64,000 nt of DNA from the NCBI RefSeq assembly GCF_002929225.1, contig NZ_PISM01000020.1, forward strand, positions 248,001 through 312,000, in the 5' to 3' direction. The notes beneath the pieces are model-generated. The model made no database searches. It was not told the DNA's origin and saw nothing but the letters and a program-made list of their open reading frames with translations. Origin of the DNA: Stutzerimonas kunmingensis (GTDB taxonomy: Bacteria; Pseudomonadota; Gammaproteobacteria; Pseudomonadales; Pseudomonadaceae). This document shows, in pieces, positions 4,721 to 44,311 of the stretch; position 1 is the first letter of the stretch, and each line of letters begins with the position of its first letter. Both the position numbers and the translations under genes were made by a program.

Positions 4721-6124
4721 TCAATGTGGCGAGTTGAACTGCATCGCCAGGGCGCGCAAGGCGGCTTCAGCGGCGAGTACCTTGGCAATCGCGTCGTTGG
4801 CCTTCTCGCGGGTGATACCCAGGCGATCGAACAGCTCCTGCGGCACTTCGGCGTCCGGTCCGCTGCCGATACCGCGGTTGCGCAGCATGCGTACCGCCAG
4901 GCAGACCAGGTTCGGATAGGCCGCATCCTCACCGTCGTAGCCCGGATCGTTCTGGAAGCGCAGGGCGGCGGCCAGTTCCTCGGGCATGCCCCACAGACGC
5001 ATCAGCCAGGCGCCGATCTGCTCACGGGTGATGCCCAGCAGATGCTGTTCGACGTGGCTGTGCGACAGATGCGGGTTGGCTTCCACATGTCGGCAAATCA
5101 GCGAGAAGTGCGGCGGGAAGACGTGCGCCAACACTAGGTAGCCGAAGTTGTGCAGCAGCCCGGCGAGGTAGCTCAGGCCGGGCTCCGGGCGCTGCTCGCG
5201 CGGGATGGCGCGGGTCAGCCCCTCGATCACCGCCGCGGTATAGATCGCCTGCTGCCAGTAAGGGGTGGCGTCCTGCGGCTTGTCGTCGGGCAGGCTGATG
5301 GTCTTGCCCAGCGCCAGGCCGAGGGCGAGGTTGATCACCAGATCGAAACCGAGCACGCGGACGATGGCGTCTTCCACCGAGCGGATACGCCCAGGCGCGG
5401 CGTAGTAGGGCGAGGCCGCCCAGCTGATCACCTGCGCCGCCAGCGCCGGGTCGGTTTCCACTACGCCGGTGATGTCGTCGACGGTGGCTTCGGGATTGAC
5501 CCGCAGCTTGATGATCTTCTGCGCGGTGTGCGGCAGCGGCGGAATCTCGATGGTTTCTTCCAGGCGCTTCTGGATGCGCCGCGCGGTGAAGCTCTGCACC
5601 GCCTGGGTGATTTCCGCACGGTCGTCGTTCGGGCGGTCAAGATTGGGTCGGATAGTGCTCAGCGGCACGGCGAAGCTGCCCGCCGTGGCTTTGCTCAGCA
5701 TGCGCTTGAATTCGCTACCGACAACCTCGACCAGCAGGCCCGGCTGACCGGACTCCACCAGCAGGCGCGGTTGCTGCAGCAGCTGCTCCTCGTACAGGCA
5801 GGGTGAACTGGTCAACGGCGGCAGGCCAGGCAGGCGGGTCAGCTCGTGCTTGGCGAGCATGCGCGCCAGCCGCTCCGGCTTGACTGCGGCCAGCTCGCGG
5901 CCGGTGAGTTCGGCCAGGCGTGCAAGGTCGAGCAGATGATCCTGCGGGAAGAGCACCAGCATCGCGCCGATGCTGTCGTCCAGGAGCACCGCCTGCACCC
6001 GCTGCGCAGCGGGAATGTTGGGGCGATCGCGCTGGATCTGGTAACTCACACCGAGGTCTTTCAACAGCTTGGTGATCAGGAGGGGCAGTTCGGAGCAGCT
6101 TTCGGTGTCGACAGCAGAATTCAT
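4721..6124 (-). CDS. YbaK-like domain fused to HDOD domain, signalling protein
   Basis: A 467-residue protein with two parts. Residues about 1-150 resemble a YbaK/prolyl-tRNA deacylase fold (LLITKLLKDLGVSYQIQ, then LAELTGRELAAVKPERLARM). Residues about 190-400 form an HDOD domain (EIPPLPHTAQKIIKLRVNP, TDPALAAQVISWA, IRSVEDAIVRVLGFDLV). HDOD domains resemble HD domains without dependable catalytic residues and usually act as signalling or scaffold modules. The deacylase-like part may be regulatory and not enzymatic. The start was placed at 6124 (MNSAVDTES); a longer form from 6175 is possible. It stands alone and converges with the gsp operon. Confidence 0.8.
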   Translation of the reverse strand: MNSAVDTESCSELPLLITKLLKDLGVSYQIQRDRPNIPAAQRVQAVLLDDSIGAMLVLFPQDHLLDLARLAELTGRELAAVKPERLARMLAKHELTRLPGLPPLTSSPCLYEEQLLQQPRLLVESGQPGLLVEVVGSEFKRMLSKATAGSFAVPLSTIRPNLDRPNDDRAEITQAVQSFTARRIQKRLEETIEIPPLPHTAQKIIKLRVNPEATVDDITGVVETDPALAAQVISWAASPYYAAPGRIRSVEDAIVRVLGFDLVINLALGLALGKTISLPDDKPQDATPYWQQAIYTAAVIEGLTRAIPREQRPEPGLSYLAGLLHNFGYLVLAHVFPPHFSLICRHVEANPHLSHSHVEQHLLGITREQIGAWLMRLWGMPEELAAALRFQNDPGYDGEDAAYPNLVCLAVRMLRNRGIGSGPDAEVPQELFDRLGITREKANDAIAKVLAAEAALRALAMQFNSPH

Positions 6125-32640: not shown

Positions 32641-34128
32641 ATGCTGCAAACGATCAAACAAAACTGGTTCTCCAACGTCCGTGGCGATGTGCTGTCCGGC
32701 CTCGTCGTCGCGCTGGCGCTGATTCCCGAAGCCATCGCCTTCTCCATCATCGCCGGGGTCGATCCGCGGGTCGGCCTCTACGCCTCCTTCTGTATCGCCG
32801 TGGTGATCGCCTTCGTCGGCGGCCGCCCGGGTATGATCTCTGCCGCCACCGGCGCCATGGCACTGCTGATGGTGACGCTGGTGCGCGAGCACGGCCTGCA
32901 GTACCTGCTGGCGGCGACGCTGCTCTGCGGCCTGTTGCAGATCGGCGCCGGCTACCTGCGCCTGGGTTCGCTGATGCGCTTTGTCTCGCGTTCGGTGGTT
33001 ACCGGTTTCGTCAACGCGCTGGCCATCCTGATCTTCATGGCCCAGCTGCCGGAACTGACGAACGTCACCTGGCACGTCTACGCCATGACCGCCGCGGGCC
33101 TCGGCATCATCTACCTGTTCCCCTATGTGCCGAAGCTCGGCAAGGTCATCCCGTCGCCACTGGTGTGCATTCTCAGCCTGACCGCCGTGGCCATGTACCT
33201 GGGCCTGGATATCCGCACCGTCGCCGACATGGGTGACCTGCCCGACACCCTACCGGTCTTCCTCTGGCCGGAAGTGCCGCTGACCTTCGAAACCCTGGCG
33301 ATCATCTTCCCGTATTCCGCCGCGCTCGCCGTGGTAGGCCTGCTGGAATCGCTGATGACCGCGACCATCGTCGACGACCTCACCGACACCGGCAGCGACA
33401 AGAACCGCGAATGCAAAGGGCAGGGCGTTTCCAACATCGTCTCCGGCCTGTTCGGCGGCATGGCCGGCTGCGCGATGATCGGCCAGTCGGTGATCAACGT
33501 GAAATCCGGCGGCCGTACCCGGCTGTCGACGCTGATCGCCGGCGTGGTGCTGCTGCTGATGGTGGTGTTCTTGAGTGACTGGGTCGGGCAGATCCCCATG
33601 GCCGCGCTGGTGGCGGTGATGATCATGGTGTCGATCGGCACCTTCAGCTGGGATTCGCTGCGCAACCTCAAGCGCTACCCGCTTTCCACCAACATCGTCA
33701 TGGTCGTCACCGTGGTGGTGGTGGTCTTCACCCACAACCTGGCCTACGGTGTTCTGGCGGGCGTGCTGCTAGCGGCGATGTTCTTCGCCAACAAGGTCGG
33801 CCACTACCTGCACATCGGTTCGGAGCTGGATGCCGCCGGCAATCAGCGCACCTACAGGGTGGTCGGGCAGGTATTCTTCAGCTCATCGGACAAATTCACC
33901 GGTGCGTTCGATTTCAAGGAAGCGCTCGGCAAGGTCACCATCGACCTGTCCCGCGCACATTTCTGGGACATCACCGCCGTGGCGGCGCTGGACAAGGTGG
34001 TCATCAAGTTCCGCCGCGAAGGCACCGAGGTCGAGGTGCTGGGTCTGAACCAAGCCAGCGCGACCATCGTTGACCGCTTCGGTGTGCATGACAAACCCGA
34101 GGCCATCGACAAGCTCATGAGCCACTGA
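32641..34128 (+). CDS. SulP-family anion transporter with STAS domain
   Basis: A 495-residue inner-membrane transporter. The membrane part (about 1-390) shows family stretches [42 protein letters not shown], and [22 protein letters not shown]-terminal STAS domain (about 400-490, [20 protein letters not shown]) follows. SulP proteins move sulfate, bicarbonate or dicarboxylates; the short form with a clear STAS and a neighbouring universal stress protein resembles bicarbonate-type members, but the ion is not certain. The next gene is 14 bases downstream, so the two are likely co-transcribed. Confidence 0.92.
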
Positions 34129-34142
34129 CCAGGAGAACGACA

Positions 34143-34994
34143 ATGACCCACGTAATGGCTTGTATCGACGGATCACCGCAGGCCGCGGCGGTTTGCGACT
34201 GTTCGGCCTGGGCCAGCAAGCGCCTGGATGCGCCCCTGACGCTGCTGCATGTGCTCGACCGCCAGCAGTATCCGGTGTCGGGCGACCTGAGCGGCATCAT
34301 CGGCCTCGGCAGCCGCGAATTCCTCCTGCAGGAGCTGGCCACGCTGGACGAGAAACGCGCCAAGCTGGCGCTGGAGGAGGGCCGCATGATGCTCGATTCG
34401 GCACGTCAGCGGGCGATCTCCGCCGGCGTCGCGCAGCCGGAGTGCCGGCAGCGGCATGGCGATCTGGTCGAGACGCTGCATGAACTGCAGGACGAGACCC
34501 GCCTGCTGGTGATCGGCCGGCAGGGCGAGGACAGCGGCGACGCCATCCAGCACATCGGCAGCCAGCTCGAGAGCGTGATCCGCGCCCTGCACCGGCCGAT
34601 CCTCGTCACCCCTGGCCGTTTCGCCGCACCGCAGAGCCTGATGCTGGCTTTCGACGGCAGTGCCACCAGCCGCAAGGGTGTCGAGCTGCTGACTGGCAGC
34701 CCGTTATTCAGGGATATGCCGATCCATCTGGTAATGGTCGGCAGCGAGACCGGGGACGCTCAGGCCCAGCTCGAAGCCGCGCGCGACAGGTTGAGCGCCA
34801 GCGGTTTCGAGGTGCACATCGCGGTCCGCAACGGGGACGTGGAGCCGACACTGCATGGCTATCAGGCCGAGCACGGCATCGATCTGCTGGTGATGGGCGC
34901 CTACGGCCATTCGCGCATTCGCCAGTTCTTCGTCGGCAGTACCACTACCAGCATGATCCGCACCACCAGCACGCCGCTACTGTTGCTGCGCTGA
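34143..34994 (+). CDS. Tandem universal stress protein
   Basis: A 283-residue protein with two USP domains (about 1-150 and 158-283). The second has VMGAYGHSRIRQFFVGSTT, matching the nucleotide-binding G-x2-G-x9-G-S/T pattern of ATP-binding USPs. The first has LVIGRQGED in that place, so it is probably degenerate. AGGAGA precedes the ATG. Location after the SulP gene suggests that it regulates or responds to transport; this pairing recurs in Proteobacteria. Confidence 0.9.
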   Translation: MTHVMACIDGSPQAAAVCDCSAWASKRLDAPLTLLHVLDRQQYPVSGDLSGIIGLGSREFLLQELATLDEKRAKLALEEGRMMLDSARQRAISAGVAQPECRQRHGDLVETLHELQDETRLLVIGRQGEDSGDAIQHIGSQLESVIRALHRPILVTPGRFAAPQSLMLAFDGSATSRKGVELLTGSPLFRDMPIHLVMVGSETGDAQAQLEAARDRLSASGFEVHIAVRNGDVEPTLHGYQAEHGIDLLVMGAYGHSRIRQFFVGSTTTSMIRTTSTPLLLLR

Positions 34995-35000
34995 ACGATC

Positions 35001-35033
35001 GGGCCCCGTAGCGCACTCGCCGGCGCGGGGCCC
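35001..35033. terminator. GC-rich hairpin between convergent usp and cfa genes
   Basis: GGGCCCCG (35001-35008) pairs perfectly with CGGGGCCC (35026-35033). It sits 7 bases after the USP stop and just beyond the cfa stop on the other strand, a likely two-way terminator without a long T-run. Confidence 0.55.
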
Positions 35034-35040
35034 GCCGGGT

Positions 35041-36222
35041 TCAGCCATACAGGTCGGCGCGGGTCCAGGGCAGCTCGTGGGAACCGTCCGGCAGCGGTTT
35101 GCTGGCGAGGACCTGGTGCAGGTCGATCCAGTCGCGGCGGAAGCCATAGGCGCAGCCGGCCAGGTACATCCGCCAGATTCGCAAGGCGCGCTCGGGAACC
35201 AACTGCCGGGCCTGCTCCAGATGCGCCTCCAGGCGTTCGCTCCACAGCTGCAACGTGCGGGCGTAGTGCAGGCGCAGGCTTTCCACGTCGACGATTTCCA
35301 GCCCCGACTCGCTGATGCAGGCGCTGATCTTCACCAGATGCGGTAGCTCGCCGTGGGGGAATACGTAGCGGTCGATGAACTCGCCCGCCCCATGGCCGAC
35401 CGGCCGGCCATCCAGATGCCGCGAGGTGATGCCGTGGTTGAGCACCAGCCCGCCCGGGCGCACTACGCCGAACAGCTGCTGGCAGTACAGCGGCAGGTTG
35501 GCATGGCCGACATGTTCGAACATGCCGACGCTCACCACCTTGTCGAAGCGGCCGTCCTGCGGCAGGTCGCGGTAATCCATCAGCTCCAGCCGCACCTGGT
35601 CCTGCAGCCCCTCGGCGACCACGCGCTCGCGGCCCAGCGCCAGCTGCTCGCGGCTGAGGGTGATGCCGAACACCTCGGCGCCGAATTCGCGTGCGGCAAA
35701 GCGCGCCAGCCCGCCCCAGCCGCAGCCGACATCGAGCAACCGGTCGCCTGGCTTGAGCCGCAGCTTGCGGCAGATCAGGCGCAGCTTGGCCTGCTGCGCC
35801 TGATCGAGGGCCTCATGGCCGGTTTCGAAGTAGGCGCAGGAATAGACCATGTCCTGGTCCAGCCAGAGTCGGTAGAAGTCGTTGGACAGGTCGTAGTGGT
35901 AGGAGATCGCCTCGGCATCGGTGGCCTTGTCATGCGCTTCGCGCGCGGGCGGGGGGAAATTGTCCTCGCCCAGCGCGCGACTCATCTCGTCACCGATGCG
36001 GATGACCTCTTCGAGAGGCCCCAGCAGGTCGATCCGCCCTTCGACGTAGGCTGCGCCGAGCAGATCCAGGCTGGGGTGCGCCAGCTGGGTTATCAGGTTG
36101 GGGTCTTTGATGACCAGCGTGACATAAGGGGAGGGCCCGATGTCGATTTCATTGCCATCCCACAAACGCAGTTTCAGCGGCAAGGCAAGTTCTTTAAGGG
36201 CCGGTAGCAATGTCGCCAACAT
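35041..36222 (-). CDS. cfa: Cyclopropane-fatty-acyl-phospholipid synthase
   Basis: A 393-residue SAM-dependent enzyme that converts cis double bonds in phospholipid acyl chains to cyclopropane rings at the inner membrane. The catalytic domain shows AISYHYDLSNDFYRLWLD, MVYSCAYF, SAM motif LLDVGCGWGG at 162-171 and GMFEHVGHANLPLYC. Length is near the usual 380-420. In Proteobacteria cfa is often RpoS-dependent; the AT-rich 148-base upstream gap leaves room for this. It stands alone. Confidence 0.93.
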   Translation of the reverse strand: MLATLLPALKELALPLKLRLWDGNEIDIGPSPYVTLVIKDPNLITQLAHPSLDLLGAAYVEGRIDLLGPLEEVIRIGDEMSRALGEDNFPPPAREAHDKATDAEAISYHYDLSNDFYRLWLDQDMVYSCAYFETGHEALDQAQQAKLRLICRKLRLKPGDRLLDVGCGWGGLARFAAREFGAEVFGITLSREQLALGRERVVAEGLQDQVRLELMDYRDLPQDGRFDKVVSVGMFEHVGHANLPLYCQQLFGVVRPGGLVLNHGITSRHLDGRPVGHGAGEFIDRYVFPHGELPHLVKISACISESGLEIVDVESLRLHYARTLQLWSERLEAHLEQARQLVPERALRIWRMYLAGCAYGFRRDWIDLHQVLASKPLPDGSHELPWTRADLYG

Positions 36223-36267
36223 GCTCGATCTCCTTTCAATTCATCGTAGGAATCCTAGACCATGAAT

Positions 36268-36296
36268 TTGAAAACTGTAGGCTATTGTATTGATAG
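36268..36296 (+). promoter_or_regulatory. Candidate sigma-70 promoter for the dsrE-lipoyl carrier pair
   Basis: TTGAAA, 17 bases, TGATAG, in an AT-rich patch 75 bases before the dsrE-like start. The spacing is ideal and the boxes are moderately good. Confidence 0.4.
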
Positions 36297-36370
36297 TTTC
36301 CTCCTATGAGTAAATGGCATCGCCTGGGCGCCAACGTAGCGGCGATCCATGATTTTCACGGAGAATCCAC

Positions 36371-36745
36371 GTGACAGAACCAACCCCACAGCGCGTGCTG
36401 ATCCTGGTGGTCAGCGGCCCCAGCACGCCGGCGCGCTGCGCGGCACCCTTTCATATCGCCACGTTGCTGGCCTGCATGGATGCCGAAGTGACCCTCTACC
36501 TCACCGGCGAAGGCACGCAACTGGCGCGCCGCGAAGTGGCCGAGTCACTCCGCGCAGTGGATGGCGGCGAGCCCTTGCTGCATTTCATCCGCAACGCCAG
36601 GCAGGCCGGCGCGCGGCTGCTGATGTGTCGCCAGCCCGGTGTCCAGCTCGACCCCACGGCACTGATCGCCGAGCTGGATGAAATCTCCAGCGGCGGCGAG
36701 CTGGCGCAGATGATCCTCGAATACGAACGGGTGCTGACCCTATGA
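36371..36745 (+). CDS. DsrE-family protein
   Basis: A 124-residue protein of the DsrE/DsrF fold: the opening strand VLILVVSGPS, an AAPFHIATLLACMDAEVTLYL segment and a late cysteine C86 (LLMCRQPG). DsrE-like proteins carry persulfide sulfur in sulfur relay systems. A Cys at this position is compatible with that, though the flanking motif is not identical to known DsrE. The stop overlaps the ATG of a lipoyl-carrier-like gene, so the two probably work together. Confidence 0.82.
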   Translation: MTEPTPQRVLILVVSGPSTPARCAAPFHIATLLACMDAEVTLYLTGEGTQLARREVAESLRAVDGGEPLLHFIRNARQAGARLLMCRQPGVQLDPTALIAELDEISSGGELAQMILEYERVLTL

Positions 36746-37206
36746 ATCTGCACGGCCTGGAGTTCCCCGACTCGCTGCGCTACGCCCCGGAGCACAGCCT
36801 GTGGTTGCGCGAAGAGGCCGACGGCAGCGTCACCCTTGGCCTGACCGCTTACGGTTGCGCGCTCTATGGTGAGATCTTCGCCTTCACCCCCAAGCGCGTC
36901 GGCGCCCGCATCGAGCGTGAGCGCAGCTTCGGCGTGGTCGAGTTCGCCAAGGCTGCGTCCTCGGCGCGTAGCCCGGTCAGCGGCGAGCTGCTGGCAGTGA
37001 ACGAAGCGCTACTCGAGCGACCGGCGCTGATCAATCAGGACTGCTACGGCGATGGCTGGATGGTCCGCCTGAAGCCGGAGGGCTGGGCCACCGTGCGCGA
37101 GGAGTTCCCGCTGGGCAAGGCAGCCGAAGCCGCCATCGACGAACGCATGCGCCTGGACAACTTCGACCCGGCCAACGCCCATGTGCAGGCGCTGCAGTGG
37201 AAATAA
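36742..37206 (+). CDS. GcvH-like lipoyl carrier protein
   Basis: A 154-residue GcvH-fold protein. The candidate lipoylated lysine is K70 in GVVEFAKAASSARSPVSG, matching the GcvH pattern VE-x-KA-x-S-x-SPVSG. An N-terminal YAPEHSLWLREEADGS and YGEIFAFTPKRVGARI agree. The C-terminus is about 25 residues longer than in a normal GcvH. The rest of the glycine cleavage system is absent here and the upstream partner is DsrE-like. That setting is closer to the lipoate-binding (LbpA) proteins of sulfur oxidation than to glycine cleavage. The assignment to either is inference. Confidence 0.82.
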   Translation: MNLHGLEFPDSLRYAPEHSLWLREEADGSVTLGLTAYGCALYGEIFAFTPKRVGARIERERSFGVVEFAKAASSARSPVSGELLAVNEALLERPALINQDCYGDGWMVRLKPEGWATVREEFPLGKAAEAAIDERMRLDNFDPANAHVQALQWK

Positions 37207-37290
37207 AGGTGCTGCAGCCTCGGTAGCCTGGGCTTCGGCCCACATCCCAACAAGATGCCGAGGTGCGATCCGATTGCGCCGCGATAGCGC

Positions 37291-37608
37291 TCAGGATTTG
37301 TCCGGCGTCGAACTGTCCAGCACCTTGTCACAGCTTCGCTTGATCGCGTGGTCCAGCTGCCGAATGCAGATATCGATCGCCAGATCGCGGGTGCGCTTGT
37401 TCGCCCACTCCAGCTCGGCCAGCGTCTCGATCAGATCCTGATGGCCGTTCTCGTTGAGCAGCATGCCGTGCTGAACGATCAGCGTCCTGCCCTGAAAACT
37501 CAGCTGCACCGGATCGCGCCCCACAAGGGATGCGCCAGCAGCCAGCAGACAATCGATATGGTCCCGTAGCGCATGCAATGCACGACGCTCATCGATCCGG
37601 TCACCCAA
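37291..37608 (-). CDS. Conserved hypothetical protein
   Basis: A 105-residue helical protein of unknown function (RALHALRDHIDCLLAAGAS, ETLAELEWANKRTRDLAIDI). The frame is open further upstream, but a TTG at 37608 has AGGAGA 6 bases before it and is the best start. No motif is recognised. It stands alone, convergent with the lipoyl carrier gene. Confidence 0.6.
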   Translation of the reverse strand: MGDRIDERRALHALRDHIDCLLAAGASLVGRDPVQLSFQGRTLIVQHGMLLNENGHQDLIETLAELEWANKRTRDLAIDICIRQLDHAIKRSCDKVLDSSTPDKS

Positions 37609-37919
37609 GACGTCTCTCCTGTCCCTGGAAAGAAAAGCCGCGATTGTGACGCGCTTCGCACGATATGACGATAGCGTTTTGATATCGCCTGATAGGTCAG
37701 ACTGTCGCATTTCGAACTGGAAGCTGGCGACGCAGGACAACGGCAGAAGAGGTGAGGTGGTTGGCGGCAGGCAGAGAGAGCCAGGCGTCGGACACTGATT
37801 CAGCTGAACGACGCGCGCTATGCTTCGGCGCAGCAGGGGGTTCCGGACAAAGGACACGTAGTTTTTTAGGAAAGCCCTGCAGGTGACCGCCCATACTCCC
37901 TCTACCCGAGGAGACTGCC
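37609..37919. other. 311-base gap between divergent genes
   Basis: Upstream space for the hypothetical gene (-) and the SDR gene (+). A GAGGAG site stands just before the SDR start. An extension of the minus-strand frame through here looks non-coding. Nothing else was recognised. Confidence 0.4.
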
Positions 37920-38688
37920 ATGTATCGCCCCGAAGATTTTCGTCTTGATGGTCAGGTTGCGGTCGTTACCGGTGCCGGTGCGGGGATCGGCCAGGCGATC
38001 GCGCAAACGTTTGCCGCCGCAGGTGCGGCAGTGCTGGTCAGCGATTTGTCGTTAGCAGCTGCCGAAGGGGTGCGTGACGAGATCGTCGCTGCCGGTGGTC
38101 AGGCCGCCGCCTGCGCCTGCGACGTCACCGACGAGACCCAGCTTGCGCAACTGGTCGAGCACTGCGTGGACGACTTCGGCAAGCTCACCTTGCTCGTCAG
38201 CAACGCCGGTGGCGGCGGCCCGAAGGCCTTCGACATGCCGATGGCAGATTTCCGTCGAGCCTACGAGCTGAACGTGTTTTTCTCTGTTTCGCCTGGCGCA
38301 GTTGGCGGCTCCGCATATGGAGCAGGCCGGTGGCGGAGCGATGCTGGCGATCACCTCGATGGCCGGCGAGAACCGCAACCAGCACATGGCCTCCTACGGC
38401 TCTTCCAAGGCCGCGGCCAATCACCTGATCCGCAACATCGCTTTCGACCTGGGACCGCGCGGAATCCGCGTTAACGGCATCGCCCCAGGCGCAACACTCA
38501 CCCATGCGCTTAAAGGCGTGCTCACCGAAGACATCGAACGCCAAATGCTGGCGCATACGCCCCTTCAGCGTTTGGGTGACCCCCAGGATATGGCCAACGC
38601 GGCGCTGTTTCTCTGTTCACCTGCGGCGGCCTGGATCAGCGGCCAGATCCTCACGGTCTCCGGCGGTGGGGTGCAGGAGCTGGGCTGA
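37920..38688 (+). pseudogene. Short-chain dehydrogenase/reductase, frameshifted
   Basis: A classical SDR expected to have 255 residues. The cofactor motif is VVTGAGAGIGQA, the structural motif LVSNAGGGGP, and the catalytic Tyr and Lys stand in ASYGSSKAAANHL (YxxxK). RGIRVNGIAPGATLT and the C-terminal WISGQILTVSGGG agree. It resembles 7-alpha-hydroxysteroid dehydrogenase-type enzymes; the true substrate is unknown. Five T at 38277-38281 break the frame after YELNVF. With four T it reads ELNVFSLFRLAQLAAPHMEQ and joins the second half. As written the first frame ends at 38474 without the active site. Confidence 0.85.
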
Positions 38689-38791
38689 ATACTCCCGGAG
38701 GCGGGCCGGCCATCATCAAGCCCAACCGGGGCCTTCAGGCCGAGCATCTTCATCGCAGCCGACAACGTTAGCGCCCGCGAGCTCTCTTTGA

Positions 38792-38811
38792 GAAAAGGGG
38801 GGCAGATTTAT
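38792..38811 (+). repeat. GAAAAGGGG-CAGATTTAT motif, left copy
   Basis: GAAAAGGGGGGCAGATTTAT, similar to GAAAAGGGGACAGATTTAT at 40804-40822. Motifs of this form, as I recall, recur around REP-associated tyrosine transposases and other mobile segments in Proteobacteria. Here one copy stands just outside each end of the island cargo. Confidence 0.6.
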
Positions 38812-38834
38812 CTGGTTAGCCTTCTGGTGTGAAT

Positions 38835-38861
38835 TGGCGGAAGGCAGTGAGAGTCGAACTC
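38835..38861 (-). repeat. 27-bp duplicate of the selC 3' end (distal attachment site)
   Basis: These 27 bases are identical to 40854-40880, the 3' end of the selenocysteine tRNA gene including CCA. The fragment has no other tRNA sequence beside it. A duplicated tRNA 3' end bordering foreign DNA is the footprint of site-specific integration by a tyrosine integrase. Confidence 0.88.
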
Positions 38862-39044
38862 GTTTTTTTGGCTTGCAGTGACTGGCTGTCTTCGGCTTTC
38901 CTACGTCGGCATCGTTAGCTGGGCCGCATTACTCTGCTCTCACTGGCAGTGATTTCGACAGTTTTTCGACATGCCGACCTTCGCATTATCGACTGTCCAA
39001 ATCTACGCGGCGTTAATAAATATGCGCGAGAAGGAAGTGCTCTT

Positions 39045-40055
39045 GTGGAAAAGCGATACCAGGTTTTTGTTAGCTCTACCTATGCCGACTTGAAAGAGGA
39101 AAGGCAACATGTCACTCAGGCGCTTATGGAAATGGACTGTATCCCTGCAGGCATGGAGCTATTTCCTGCTGCTGACGAGGAGCAATGGGAGTTCATAAAG
39201 CGGGTAATTGACGACTGCGATTACTATCTTCTGATAGTTGGAGGGCGTTATGGATCAACCACAGAAGAAGGAATAAGTTATACCGAAAAAGAGTATGAGT
39301 ACGCCGTAAAAATAGGATTAAAAGTGGTCGCGCTCTTGCATGGGAAACCAGAAAACATACCCGTAGGAAAATCTGATGTTACGCCAGAGTTGAGAGCTAA
39401 GCTTGATAGTTTTAGAGAAAAGGTATCTAAAAGTCGGCTAGTTAGGTTTTGGAGCGAGCCCGCAGAGCTGCCTGGTTTGGTCGCATTAAGCCTGTCAAAA
39501 ACTATTAAAATGTTTCCCGCAATTGGGTGGGTGCGGGCAAAGGCGATTTCCAATGAGGAGCTTTTGGTTGAGCTGAACGAGTTGCGAAAAGAGAATAGTT
39601 CATTAAAAGCTGATTTGTCTAAGATTCCTAAGCCTACGGAGGCCTATGCAATAGAAGACATAGCTGGCTTAGACGATGAGTTTGAGCTTTCGGGAACTTA
39701 CTTTAATGAGTACGGAAAACGAGAATGGATTTGTTCAATTTCATGGAAAGAAATATTTTCCATAATCTCGCCGTATCTCTCGCAGACCCCTAATCAAGAA
39801 TATGTGAAGGAGGTCCTTAGGAAAGAGGTTGTTTTCCGAAACGGTATAAGCGAGAGATCAAACACACTGAATGACCAGGTCTTTCAAACAATTGCAGTAC
39901 AGCTAAAAGCGTTAGGGCTTATTGAAACAAGATACACCCAGACAGTGAAGGGGGGTATGGCAATGTTTTGGAGCTTTACACCCGAAGGTGAGCGTCTAAT
40001 GGTACAGCTACGTTCCGTAAGAAAAAGTAATAGCAGCAAAGACTGCGCGTCGTGA
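39045..40055 (+). CDS. DUF4062 (TIR-like) protein
   Basis: A 336-residue protein. Residues about 4-105 are a DUF4062 domain: [19 protein letters not shown], then [16 protein letters not shown], then [14 protein letters not shown]. This domain is related in fold to TIR/nucleoside-binding modules and occurs in predicted immune proteins. A short coiled coil follows (about 170-200, [20 protein letters not shown]), then a C-terminal region (about 235-325) that looks like a winged helix ([20 protein letters not shown]). The GTG at 39045 with AAGGA upstream is preferred; an ATG at 38949 would add 32 poorly supported residues. AT-rich codon use marks it as acquired. A HEPN-motif gene follows 32 bases later. 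Confidence 0.8.
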
Positions 40056-40087
40056 ATCTAAGTTAGCTGTCACTCAGGTCGTAATTA

Positions 40088-40795
40088 ATGCGAAAGATTA
40101 ACCCGCAAGATGTTAAAGCTCAATTCTCGGCTTTTGTAAGCGAACGATTGGCGTACTTCAATCGTGTCGAAACGGCATTAAATGGCACGCCACATGAAAA
40201 GCGAGATATCAGCGTTTTAGCTGAAACGACTCTTCACTCAACATATGTGGCTTTCGAGTGCTTCGTCTCTGACTTGATCGTTGCATATATAAATAGAGAT
40301 TTCTCTCAGTACCAAAGAGTGCTAGCGACTAGAATATCTCAATCTATAGATAGCAAGTTTGGTGGGTGGGCAAGGTCGCGCACGCCATTTAATGCGGTAA
40401 AACATATCAGGATTGATGATCTAGAGAGGATGCTGGATCCTGAAAATTATAATCTAACTTTTAAGAGTGTCGAGGTTCTTAAGCAGCGGTGCAATGAGTG
40501 GATTGCTGCACCTTATAAAGATGGCATCATGAACCTGACTGAGGCGGATTCAAGGTTTATTGATACAGTGCACTCTGTTCGGAATTTTATTGCCCATCAA
40601 AGCAAAAATTCGAAGGCTCTAATGAATGACAATCTTATGACCGTAGTGACGGGACCAAATTGTCCTAATCTGGGGCTAGGGCGTGGGGTACGTGATGTAC
40701 ATGACGTAGGCGCGTTCCTTAAGTCAGCTTTTTCCGGCAGTAGGCGAATAACGACTTATATTCGTCGGCTAGACAATATAGCTCAAACTTTGTAA
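40088..40795 (+). CDS. HEPN-motif protein, putative RNase
   Basis: A 235-residue mostly helical protein. Near residue 165 it has RNFIAH (R165-x4-H170) inside DTVHSVRNFIAHQSKNS, the R-x4-6-H catalytic signature of HEPN ribonucleases, preceded by helices such as LHSTYVAFECFVSDLIVAYI. HEPN proteins act as toxins or effectors in antiphage and toxin-antitoxin systems. The partner here is a DUF4062 protein, not a MNT nucleotidyltransferase. Like its neighbour it is AT-rich. It ends 58 bases before the selC 3' end. I do not recognise a published system with this pair. Confidence 0.72.
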   Translation: MRKINPQDVKAQFSAFVSERLAYFNRVETALNGTPHEKRDISVLAETTLHSTYVAFECFVSDLIVAYINRDFSQYQRVLATRISQSIDSKFGGWARSRTPFNAVKHIRIDDLERMLDPENYNLTFKSVEVLKQRCNEWIAAPYKDGIMNLTEADSRFIDTVHSVRNFIAHQSKNSKALMNDNLMTVVTGPNCPNLGLGRGVRDVHDVGAFLKSAFSGSRRITTYIRRLDNIAQTL

Positions 40796-40803
40796 TTACA
40801 TTG

Positions 40804-40822
40804 GAAAAGGGGACAGATTTAT
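40804..40822 (+). repeat. GAAAAGGGG-CAGATTTAT motif, right copy
   Basis: GAAAAGGGGACAGATTTAT, the partner of the copy at 38792-38811, standing 31 bases from the selC 3' end. Confidence 0.6.
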
Positions 40823-40853
40823 TTTCCGAGGCGGGGGCCGTCCGTAGCCAAAA

Positions 40854-40949
40854 TGGCGGAAGGCAGTGAGAGTCGAACTCACCCGGGAACGGCTGCCGTC
40901 CCCAACCGGGTTTGAAGCCCGGCCGCACCACCGGGTGCGATTGCCTTCC
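40854..40949 (-). tRNA. selC: tRNA-Sec (anticodon UCA)
   Basis: A 96-base gene with encoded CCA. The 8-bp acceptor stem is GGAAGGCA/TGCCTTCC. The anticodon arm is CCGGGCTTCAAACCCGG with anticodon TCA at 40913-40915. A long variable arm (TTGGGGACGGCAGCCGTTCCCG) and the T arm GTGAGTTCGACTCTCAC follow. The long acceptor and variable arms are those of selenocysteine tRNA. It lies 39 bases downstream of selB on the same strand and provides the UGA decoder for fdnG. Its 3' end is the attachment site of the neighbouring island. Confidence 0.97.
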
Positions 40950-40988
40950 TTATCTGGACTTGATGTGGGAAAGGAAGCGGCGACCAGC

Positions 40989-42905
40989 CTACCCCAGGCC
41001 TGACTGGATCGCCAAGACGCTGTCCTGGCGGACTTTGCGTTCGTTGCCGAAGCGGCGGGTGAGGCCGATGCGGTCGAAGTGTTCGAGCAGCTGGATGCTG
41101 CGTTTGCGGCCGAGCTGGATGCGGTCGCGGAAGGCGGCGGCGCGGATCACGCCGCTTTGCGCTTCCAGTTGCAGTACATGCCCCGCGAGTTGGCGAATGG
41201 TGAACTCGGGGTAGAACAAATCTTTCACCACCTGTTGCAGCAGGCCGAGACGGGAGAGCTTGCGTAGCAGGTTGCGCATCTGCGTTTCGTCGACACCGAG
41301 GTCGCGGGCCAGGTCGCGGACCCAGGGCGGGTCGAAGTGGCCGGCTTCGAGCAGTGGCCACAGGCGCGCTTTCAAATCTTCTTCCGCATCGCTCAGGCGC
41401 ACCCGGTGATCGGGGCGGTGCAGCCAGGGACCGCTGGTTTCGATGTGGCCGGCGGCCAGTGCCTGTTCCAGCAAGGCGATGAACACCGGCCGCTCCAGCT
41501 GCGGCAGAGCGTAGCGACGCAGGCGGTCGCGGTCGGGCCCAAGTTCGTCGGGTTGTTCTTCGTGAAAACGCTGAAGTGAGTCGAGCAGCGCGATTTCGAG
41601 TTCGCGCCAGCGGGCCTGGTCGAACAGCCGTGGGCCCAGCCGTGTGCTGATCTCCAATACGCCTTGCGGCAGCTGCCAACCTTGGCGCGGGCGGTTGAAT
41701 TGGCGTTCCAGGCTTTGCGGATCGATGCCATTGGTGGCGCTGGCGAGCAGCGGCGGCAATGCATGCTCCAGGCTTGGCTGGTCCAGCGCTCGCAATTGCT
41801 CCAGTCGCGCGACGCGGCGGCGATTGCGCGGTGGTGCGTACGGGTCGAGCACGCGGCCGCCGCCGAGGGTGCGCTGGGCGGACTGATCGCGCAGGACGAT
41901 GCGGTCGCCATGTACCGCGTGGCTCGGTGCGTTGAGCAGTAACTGGGCGAAGGCGCGTTCGCCCGGCGCCAGGCTCGTGCCTTCGAGCAGGGCGACGCGG
42001 GCGGTGACGTCCTGGGCGCCGAGGTGCACGTGCACGGGCGTCCAGTGCTTGAGTTCGTAGGCTTCGCCGGGCAGCAGCTGGAAGTCGACGTCGATGCGTT
42101 GGGTCGGCGCGTGCAACAGTGGGTGGAGCAGCCAGTCGCCACGGTGGATCTGCTCCACTGCCAGCCGCTCGCCGGCAAGATTCAGGGCCACGCGCTGGCC
42201 AGCATGGGCTTCGTCCGCTTCGCGGTTCTGCGCGTGCAGGCCGCGGACGCGCACGCGTTTGCCGGCGGGGCCGAGAAGCAGTTCGTCGCCGATTCGCACG
42301 CGCCCGGCAAACGCGGTGCCGGTGACCACCACGCCGGCGCCGGTGACGCTGAAGGCGCGGTCGATGGCCAGGCGGAAGTGGCCGCTGTCGCTGCGGGCGG
42401 CGGTGCGCGCGGCTTCGTCGATCAGCGCGGCGCGCAGGGCGTAAATGCCATCGCCGCGGATGCTGGAAACCGGAAAGATCGGCGCACTGGCCAGTGCTCC
42501 GGCGGCCAGCAGGTCTTCGATCTGCTGCTCGACTTCGGCGATGCGCGCCGGCTCGACGCGATCGATCTTGGTCAGCGCTACCAGCGCGCGACGGATGCCG
42601 AGCAGCTCGACGATGGCCAGGTGTTCGCGGGTCTGCGGCATCACGCCGTCATCGGCAGCCACCACCAGCAGTACGCAGTCGATGCCGCTGGCGCCGGCCA
42701 GCATGTTGTGCACGAAGCGCTCGTGGCCCGGCACGTCGATAAAACCGGTGAGGCTGCCCTCGCCGAGGTCGGCGTAGAGGTAGCCGAGGTCGATGGTGAT
42801 GCCACGCTCGCGCTCCTCGCGGCGGCGGTCGCCCTGTTGCCCGGTGAGGGCGTGGAGCAGTGCGGTCTTGCCATGGTCGATATGGCCGGCGGTCCCGACG
42901 ATCAA
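40989..42905 (-). CDS. selB: Selenocysteine-specific elongation factor SelB
   Basis: A 638-residue GTPase that brings Sec-tRNA to UGA codons. G1 motif GHIDHGKT at 7-14, then [23 protein letters not shown] and ALTKIDRV; the C-terminal half holds winged-helix domains that bind the SECIS hairpin. The start is a TTG at 42905 ([14 protein letters not shown]), which overlaps the selA stop; the frame upstream lies inside selA. selC follows. Confidence 0.95.
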
Positions 42906-44311
42906 CGGGCCAGCTCCTCTTGCAGGTGCGCCAGTTGCTGGAGGAAGGCCGGCTCGTCGTCCAGTTGGCGCAGGTCGAGCCAGAGGGCGTCGTCGTCGAT
43001 GCGCCCAAGGACCGGAATCGGCAGGCAGCGCAGCGCTTCTTCCAGCTGACGCAGGCTGCGGCCGCGCAGGCGCTTGGGCTGCTGCGGACGGATGCACAGG
43101 GCGGCGCTGGGCAGACGGGCCACCGGCTGCGCGCCGCTGCCGATCATACCCAGGGCATCGGTTACTGCGACTTGCCAGGTTTCGCCGAGCACGGCGGCCA
43201 GCGCCGGAGCGATGCGTTCAGCCTGGGTGCGGATCTCCGCCTGCGGGCGGCTGAGCAGGCGCAGGCTGGTGAGGCGTTCGGCCAGGCGGTCGGGGTCGCG
43301 ATAGAGGTTGAGCACCGCTTCCAGCGCGGCAAGGGTCAGCTTGTCGACGCGCAGGGCGCGCTTGAGCGGGTTCTTCTTGATCTTCTGGATCAGCGCCTTG
43401 CTGCCGACGATCAGCCCGGCCTGCGGGCCGCCGAGCAGCTTGTCGCCGCTGAAGGTGACGATGTCGGCGCCGTCGCGCAGCGCTTCCTGCACCGTCGGCT
43501 CCTTGGGCAGGCCCCAGCGCGAGAGGTCGAGCAGGCTGCCGCTGCCCAGATCCTCCAGCAACGGCAGGTCGCGGGCATGGGCGATGCGCGCCAGCTCGGC
43601 GGTGGCGACGCTGGCAGTGAAACCCTGCACGCTGTAGTTGCTGGTATGCACGCGCATCAACAGCCCTGAGCGCGAGTTGATGGCCGCTTCGTAATCCTTG
43701 GCGTGGGTGCGGTTGGTGGTACCGACTTCATGCAGCTTCACGCCGGCGCGGGCCATGATGTCCGGGATGCGGAAGGCGCCACCGATCTCGATCAGCTCGC
43801 CACGGGAAATGATGCCTTCCTTGCGTGCGCCGAGGCTGTTCAAGGCCAGCAGCACGGCGGCGGCGTTGTTGTTCACCACGGTGACCGCCTCGGCGCCGGT
43901 CAGCTCGCGGATCAGTCCTTCGATGAGGTCGTCGCGATCGCCGCGCTTGCCGGTGGCGAGATCGAATTCCAGGTTGAGTGGATAGCGCGCCGCAAGGGTG
44001 ATCGCCTCGATGGCTTCATCCGGCAACAGGGCGCGACCGAGGTTGGTGTGCAGCACCGTGCCGGTGAGGTTGAACACTCGGCGCACGCGGCTCTTGTGCT
44101 GGCTGGCCAGGCGTTCGCCGGCGCGCCCGGCGAGCACCGCTTCGGACAGCTCCAGCGCGGCCAGCTGGCCGCGGCGAGCCGGTTCGCGCAGTTCGTCGAG
44201 CAGGTCGCGCAGTGTCGCCAGCAGCGCCTGACGACCATAGCGCTGCTGCAGCGGCTGACAGGCCGGATCGCGCAGCAGCTTGTCCACCGAGGGCAGATGG
44301 CTGCTGCTCAT
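42902..44311 (-). CDS. selA: L-seryl-tRNA(Sec) selenium transferase SelA
   Basis: A 469-residue PLP enzyme that turns Ser-tRNA(Sec) into Sec-tRNA(Sec). Hallmarks: the N-terminal [41 protein letters not shown], and the PLP lysine K291 in [14 protein letters not shown]. Length fits the family (463-470). The start overlaps the fdhE stop and the stop overlaps the selB TTG, so fdhE-selA-selB are translationally coupled. Confidence 0.97.

Follow-up and report, generated by a model that had tools for sequence, protein, structure and literature searches.

A Swarozyc homolog and a probably independent HEPN-like gene in an integrase-less cassette at the tRNA-Sec gene of Stutzerimonas

Here we analyse a 64,000-nucleotide stretch of Stutzerimonas kunmingensis DNA (contig NZ_PISM01000020.1, positions 248,001 to 312,000; hereafter the window), in which a gene for a DUF4062 protein (protein 1) is followed by a gene for a helical protein with a HEPN motif (protein 2). 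The best explanation of the locus, and in our judgement a probable one, is that a homolog of the defence gene Swarozyc (Swz) and an independent HEPN gene lie together in a remnant, integrase-less cargo cassette of 2.0 kb at the tRNA-Sec gene. The initial annotation had proposed an undescribed system of a DUF4062 sensor and a HEPN effector; protein 1 is instead a full-length relative of KpSwz, which acts as one gene, and this moves the locus to a described system and predicts a portal-triggered, E83-dependent NADase. More broadly, the cargo slot of filamentous-phage-type tRNA-Sec elements in Stutzerimonas appears to host defence-type genes, in some cases within cassettes devoid of phage genes, and protein 2 draws attention to a HEPN family carried by mobile elements. 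Still of interest are the integrase-less cassette, the most novel part, and the singular neighbourhood of an NADase and a probable RNase.

A May 2026 preprint describes Swarozyc as a single-gene system, a DUF4062 TIR-like NADase (PMC13174449). In the account given there, the helix–turn–helix (HTH)/winged auxiliary domain of KpSwz rings the phage portal, NAD+ is depleted in an abortive response, defence requires both E97 and the auxiliary domain, and KpSwz expressed as one gene gives defence.

Protein 1 is a full-length relative of KpSwz

On the strength of its alignment, protein 1 is a Swarozyc homolog and a close relative of KpSwz, and so a known kind of defence protein and not part of a new two-gene system. 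KpSwz (10wc, 11cq and 11cv) was the sole match at E ≤0.001 when PDB sequences were searched with phmmer, its residues 3–324 aligning with residues 2–327 of protein 1 at E 7e-93. Protein 1 also matches Pfam DUF4062 (PF13271; E 1e-31; 109 bits, cut-off 24.7) and, over its full length, phrog_15411 of PHROGs (E 7e-114); PADLOC (2023) gave no match for it, and NCBIfam gave nothing above its cut-offs. The deposited KpSwz chain has an alanine opposite E83 of protein 1, and from the offset counted from W238–Y239 we infer that this alanine is KpSwz residue 97, reported as E97A. E83 is invariant in all nine rows of one alignment (A3), the window's row included. The start of gene 1, a GTG with GAAGGAAG at 39030–39037, is a choice within an open frame that extends upstream to 38949, and it is supported because residue 3 of KpSwz aligns with residue 2 of protein 1.

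The AlphaFold model of protein 1 (mean pLDDT 78, pTM 0.47) has an N-terminal part of alternating strands and helices, a stalk helix and a tail of helices and strands, in which strands 212–221 and 224–233 occupy the hairpin position. The best Foldseek row for this model is an ORC/Cdc6 chain with a low TM-score; the weak matches that rank below it include plant TIR domains, DNPH1 and PadR-type winged helices. KpSwz is absent among the 50 matches listed, from a structure library that ends on 2026-04-08. Together with the PF13271 match, the stalk, tail and PadR-type matches bear out the initial description of a TIR-related DUF4062 protein with a winged-helix-like tail.

Protein 1 thus resembles KpSwz in its DUF4062 domain, conserved catalytic glutamate, stalk, HTH/winged auxiliary domain and carriage on a mobile element, and in having a pair of aromatic residues at the corresponding tip of the hairpin. 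It differs in the identity of that pair, which is W238–Y239 in KpSwz and Y219–F220 here, and in its setting in a Stutzerimonas host, where a HEPN gene follows it and where KpSwz-like activity and trigger are only predicted. Because protein 1 is a full-length KpSwz relative with its catalytic glutamate conserved, it is likely to be sensor and effector in one, not the sensor for a HEPN effector, and we infer both portal sensing and NADase activity by analogy. If it works as KpSwz does, an incoming tailed phage would make its portal protein, to which the C-terminal winged auxiliary domain would bind; assembly on the portal would activate the TIR-like DUF4062 domains by rearranging them, and the E83-dependent NADase would then drain NAD+, the infected cell dying before phage release. 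Gene 2, judged from HEPN biology, would encode a separate and separately triggered HEPN endoribonuclease, probably a second abortive-infection toxin.

Relatives of protein 1 at E ≤1e-30 occur in 2 of 56 genomes of the genus and 11 of 398 genomes of a phylum sample (the window's own counted in both). Relatives were also present in 177 plasmid records, for 8 of which neighbourhoods were examined. At two loci (L020, 860–3029; L021, 5127–7139), Swz homologs adjoin a gene resembling a portal gene, which we take to be of the P2 type, followed by a terminase-like gene; this neighbour is notable because KpSwz is triggered by the portal. On two phage contigs (L016 and L019, both at 4776–5876), a gene for a RelA/SpoT-domain protein (PF04607, E 2.5e-21 for L016) lies next to the Swz homolog in divergent orientation.

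Protein 2 is most likely HEPN-like

HEPN domains are described as having, at the end of a long helix, a conserved Rx4-6H motif whose arginine is followed by a polar residue (PMC3710099). Protein 2 has RNFIAH at residues 165–170, as the initial annotation had read it, and R165, N166, A169 and H170 are invariant in all six rows of one alignment (A1) and all nine of another (A2), the window included in both; two relatives, L015 with a broken frame and L017 split over two open reading frames (ORFs), were excluded from these alignments. The aligned relatives are 27–53% identical to protein 2. The Pfam family HEPN_RiboL-PSP is matched at E ≤0.01 by three of nine members of A2 and three of six of A1, with a best E of 7.7e-8. 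For protein 2 itself, Pfam HEPN_Apea gave E 0.01 and PADLOC (2023) returned only Cas13-ApeA (E 0.015); there was no match in PHROGs, and nothing among PDB sequences at E <0.5.

In its structural model (pLDDT 82, pTM 0.79), the motif lies at the end of a long helix (residues 152–170). VIA-align, run with the HEPN model only, ranked the HEPN toxin 7ae6 first (Z 7.2, rmsd 4.4, 133 residues aligned), at a score short of the trust level for helical proteins, and placed the HEPN proteins 7ae8, 7ae9, 3jrt and Csm6 (6tug and 5yjc) at lower ranks; Foldseek found no match to the model at E ≤0.001. Protein 2 is therefore most likely HEPN-like, an assignment carried by the motif and the profile matches, with weak support from the fold, and its motif suggests that it would be an RNase.

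Compared by motif and description, protein 2 recalls solo HEPN RNases such as Tha, whose RNSIMH, as reported, has the same Rx4H form with a polar asparagine after the arginine (PMC11087260). Like these proteins and the wider superfamily as described, it has its motif at a long-helix end and is carried on a mobile element (PMC11087260, PMC3710099). It differs from them in matching HEPN_RiboL-PSP weakly and in having, within its 235 residues, no clear sensor domain. We found no characterised member of its mobile-element family.

Relatives of protein 2 came from 19 loci, on 6 plasmid records, 8 genome contigs and 5 viral contigs; of 194 related genomes searched, only 1, the window's own, had one. 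Some of these loci are short (L025, L028 and L029 are under 5 kb, and L009 ends about 0.5 kb past the gene) and some are redundant (L026–L029 carry the same ORF, and L001 and L006 are near-identical). Their neighbours vary and include Shedu, DNA methylases, helicases, recombinases and phage-type genes; on three plasmids, Shedu or restriction-modification-type genes are adjacent or close to the protein 2 homolog. In the Cupriavidus loci L001, L002 and L006, near 6705, the HEPN gene and the next gene overlap by 4 bp, and the products of that next gene in L001 (458 residues) and L006 (473 residues) contain the stretch HEWLHYVHN. For the 473-residue product there was no match in Pfam (at E 0.1) or in PADLOC (at E 0.01). 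This overlapping gene is possibly a different partner of the HEPN protein.

No conserved pairing across the loci sampled

Within our sample, the pairing of DUF4062 and HEPN genes is not conserved. The only other carrier that we found is the same-species strain Stutzerimonas stutzeri BAL361, whose record (L008) and assembly (G195) we treated as one strain. Across the 18 HEPN loci other than that of BAL361, none held a relative of protein 1 (ORFs of at least 60 residues, E ≤0.001), a search aimed at relatives of this protein and not at every DUF4062 domain. In the other direction, 29 DUF4062 loci were scanned with a HEPN profile made from 14 sequences, and only the window and BAL361 were positive; the 27 negatives (9 viral, 10 from phylum-sample genomes and 8 from plasmids) are 5.0–13.5 kb long, and some end near the DUF4062 gene.

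The same picture emerged at the level of whole genomes. The 398-genome phylum sample has 40 DUF4062 places in 33 genomes. When the 32 of these other than the window's own were searched together with G195 for the window-type HEPN, only G195 matched, which leaves 0 of 32 other DUF4062-bearing genomes. It also has 57 HEPN_RiboL-PSP places in 53 genomes; seven of the 398 genomes hold both families, never on the same contig in these partly fragmented assemblies, a count that tests the Pfam family and not the subfamily of protein 2, since the Pfam search misses the window's own HEPN at threshold. Pfam detected no HEPN domain in ten scanned proteins, eight of them encoded in the neighbourhood of Swz homologs, one by a Cupriavidus gene and one by a prophage cargo gene, and the literature searched contained no paper with both DUF4062 and HEPN. 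The recurrence in other genomes that the initial annotation had looked to for support was thus not found in our sample.

The pair lies in an att-bounded cassette at tRNA-Sec

The contig that holds the window is 397.5 kb long, in a genome of 4.9 Mb. The two genes are intact plus-strand ORFs, 32 bp apart at 39045–40795, exactly as first annotated, with a G+C content of 0.40–0.45 over the pair against mostly 0.57–0.70 in the nearby flanks (Table 1). Downstream lies tRNA-Sec (selC) on the minus strand, and 26 nucleotides (nt) of its 3′ end are present as perfect copies at 38836 and 40855, which form the attachment-site (att) core; this core was also detected within a 30-nt repeat, D1 (97%). A chance origin of the two copies was rejected. 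Besides the two genes, only opposite-strand ORFs of 70–91 residues overlap the att-bounded stretch.

Extended to 27 nt, the core matches the att of the Pf-tRNA-Sec filamentous prophages of Pseudomonas aeruginosa at all but two positions (25 of 27 equal); these prophages are described as integrating at tRNA-Sec and carrying accessory genes between the core genes and att (PMC7549136). The difference from those prophages is that only about 2 kb, with no relative of an integrase, replication or Zot gene, lie between the att copies here. A filamentous-prophage hotspot of accessory genes is reported to carry defence genes in Vibrio (PMC11630473) and in the Pf6 KKP case (PMC11341870); the present locus shares with these the defence-type cargo of small filamentous prophages and differs in that the cargo remains without phage genes.

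Within the genus, the 26-nt core (≤2 mismatches) occurs in 54 of 56 genomes and in two copies in eight of these, which lie on two contigs in G050. From the start of the distal att copy, 136–143 bp are 77–82% identical between the window and G003, G045, G006, G032 and G050, whereas in G002 the similarity to this left arm is confined to the first 34 bp. Of the five elements sharing the arm, two have an integrase, two have none and one is cut off. Relatives of the BAL361 integrase and phrog_1159 protein lie between the att copies in G045 and G032 only, and were not found between those of the window (38836–40880), G003, G006 and G002. G195, G002 and G194 also have integrase genes 5′ of the tRNA, so that a source of integrase in trans is available within the genus. 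With an att near the Pf type, a left arm common to the integrase-bearing G045 and G032 elements and defence-type cargo in similar elements, the cassette most likely represents the accessory end of a tRNA-Sec element of the filamentous-phage (Pf-like) type that would have lost its integrase and replication genes.

The integrase-bearing elements of G045 (L074, 2655–9545) and G032 (L077, 3086–8973) measure 5.9–6.9 kb and contain integrase and phrog_1159 genes. In the cargo of the G045 element (L074, 2901–4966), the gene for a putAbiC protein overlaps that for a DUF2971/PDC-S31 protein by 4 bp, a candidate two-gene defence. Near the distal att, G006 carries an M78-type peptidase gene; the cargo proteins of G003, G032 and G194 that we scanned had no Pfam match at E 0.01.

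The right end GGAAAAGGGGACAGATTTATTTTCC, before the tRNA, is common to the window and G003 and lacking in G045, G006, G032 and G002. Within the same end, GAAAAGGGGACAGATTTATTTTC (window 40804–40826) was rejected as cassette-specific, since it occurs with ≤1 mismatch in 25 of the 56 genus genomes, in 1–5 copies and sometimes as close pairs; G000 has only the cassette's copy, and in G195 and G003 the cassette's is one of two. G048 has a 14/19 resemblance to it before the tRNA, with no island found there. The presence of GAAAAGGGGACAGATTTATTTTC at both right ends may thus be that of an unrelated repeat.

BAL361 shares the pair through what, by its pattern of identity, is a block of recent exchange: window and BAL361 differ at a single position over 36,900 to 40,953 and at 155 of the 904 alignment columns immediately left of 36,900, and the selB side beyond the tRNA is 92.7% identical. 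A filamentous-type prophage (L072, 7463–18236) that encodes an integrase, a Zot-family protein and a phrog_1159 protein occupies the other (5′) flank of this tRNA in BAL361. At the end opposite the integrase, it carries a gene for an OLD-like AAA ATPase (AAA_15/AAA_21), whose best PADLOC matches are NsnB and AriA.

Weighing the alternatives

Two other accounts of the genes have to be set against a Swz homolog with an independent HEPN neighbour. If the genes formed one cooperating defence system, either as sensor and effector or as linked NADase and RNase effectors, their arrangement would follow naturally: they share a strand and an equal G+C content, lie 32 bp apart with no other evident cargo inside the att copies, and have between them no plus-strand promoter-like or terminator-like site by consensus scan (the scan found no such promoter-like site before gene 1 or elsewhere in the region either). 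The narrow gap makes co-transcription likely, and the Swarozyc preprint mentions DUF4062 genes in operons with diverse enzymes (PMC13174449). Cooperation nevertheless looks distinctly improbable to us, given that neither gene accompanies the other at any of the other 27 DUF4062 loci, 32 DUF4062-bearing genomes or 18 HEPN loci, that DUF4062 and HEPN_RiboL-PSP never share a contig in the seven genomes holding both, that KpSwz defends as one gene, and that the HEPN family has other neighbours, such as the overlapping gene in Cupriavidus. A DUF4062 sensor serving a HEPN effector was rejected as the leading model, KpSwz being sensor and NADase in one and the pairing unconserved in the sample. Alternatively, gene 2 might encode a HEPN protein that binds RNA or is inactive, or else a toxin that has lost its partner, so that only the Swz homolog matters for defence. 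The weak HEPN score of the single sequence and the many mobile contexts of its homologs, with no fixed partner, speak for this; the invariance of the motif's arginine, asparagine and histidine at such low identity, and the plasmid homologs beside or near Shedu or restriction-modification-type genes, speak against it, and we consider it unlikely.

Several observations weigh against the account that we prefer, in which a Swz homolog and an independent HEPN gene share a remnant of a Pf-like element. The match of protein 2 to HEPN_RiboL-PSP (E 9e-4, 19.6 bits) is below the gathering score of 28.4, and in VIA-align Atg23 (Z 6.9) and LGN (Z 6.2) nearly tie with 7ae6, whose Z of 7.2 is within the range of unrelated helical proteins. 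The 32-bp spacing could reflect real cooperation in this one lineage. As window and BAL361 exchanged the block recently, the conservation of the pair between them is uninformative on selection. With regard to the vehicle, the right end of the cassette differs from the arm that adjoins the integrase genes in G045 and G032, and no relative of the BAL361 Zot protein was found in any of six 3′-side tRNA-Sec elements (window, G003, G006, G002, G045 and G032). For want of Zot, a whole filamentous prophage was dropped as the source of the 3′-side elements, and those of G045 and G032 may be defective or satellite-like.

A probable older insertion adjoins the cassette

The initial annotation had the pair as the sole cargo of an acquired element at a tRNA. 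Between the att copies at tRNA-Sec it is the only evident cargo; the acquired DNA, however, is longer. Chromosomal homology of the left flank ends near 37,681–37,709, and between it and the cassette lies a 1.1-kb non-native segment (37763–38835) with an SDR gene split over two frames, which is the same in BAL361 bar one base. In 14 other loci of the genus (13 genomes), the first att starts 31–62 bp past the end of left-flank homology. Elsewhere the gap is 9 bp (L044 and L055, after a shorter left-flank match), 124 bp (L067 and L077, two views of one genome), 878 bp (L050) and, in the window (L061), 1,127 bp; 14 of 34 loci gave no left-flank match, most of them holding 1.5 kb of flank only, in which a longer insert would be hidden. 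The segment begins with a decayed att-like copy at 37763. A chance origin of this copy is unlikely, although not impossible, because 18 identities were reached in 2 of 300 mononucleotide shuffles of 37600–38830 and because its 54-bp spacing is within the pattern of the other loci. Two cargo insertions thus seem to stand in tandem at this site, the SDR segment being the older.

Table 1 Features of the cassette and its surroundings in the window
Feature	Coordinates	Strand	Remarks
Decayed att-like copy, 18/26 identical	37763..37788	+	Third-best att match in the window; 54 bp past the end of chromosomal homology
Neighbouring inserted segment with broken SDR gene, outside the pair's cassette	37789..38835	+	ORFs 37920–38474 and 38302–38688, two frames
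Distal att copy of the cassette, 26 nt = tRNA-Sec 3′ end	38836..38861	+	
Left arm	38862..38971	+	With att core, 77–82% identical to tRNA-Sec elements of G003, G045, G006, G032 and G050
Swarozyc (Swz) homolog, 336 residues, GTG start: predicted TIR-like DUF4062 NADase, stalk helix, HTH/winged auxiliary domain	39045..40055	+	Homology-based
DUF4062 TIR-like domain, residues 6–87	39060..39305	+	
E83, counterpart of KpSwz catalytic E97	39291..39293	+	Invariant in 9/9 rows of A3
Stalk helix, residues 171–193	39555..39623	+	Model
C-terminal auxiliary domain, about residues 205–327	39657..40025	+	KpSwz alignment, model
Y219–F220, aligned with KpSwz portal-anchor pair W238–Y239	39699–39704	+	
HEPN-like protein, 235 residues	40088..40795	+	
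R165-N166-F-I-A169-H170, R-x4-H HEPN motif	40580..40597	+	RNFIAH, residues 165–170
Right end GGAAAAGGGGACAGATTTATTTTCC...	40803..40854	+	Common to the integrase-less element of G003
tRNA-Sec (selC), attachment site	40854..40949	-	att core 40855–40880

A wider reading, which we hold to be doubtful, would make this arrangement general: tRNA-Sec of Stutzerimonas would host integrase-less, att-bounded cassettes of about 1–3 kb that borrow Pf-type integrases in trans and stack in tandem. The window would hold two of them, the decayed SDR segment and the Swz–HEPN cassette, and G003 another with the same left arm, the same right end and different cargo; the Swz–HEPN cassette would then be a minimal defence unit of NADase and RNase, parasitic on phage integrases.

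Across the genus, the two flanks of tRNA-Sec diverge to different degrees, the left flank (34000–37700) being mostly 80–85% identical and the selB side (40854–44000) 91–93%.

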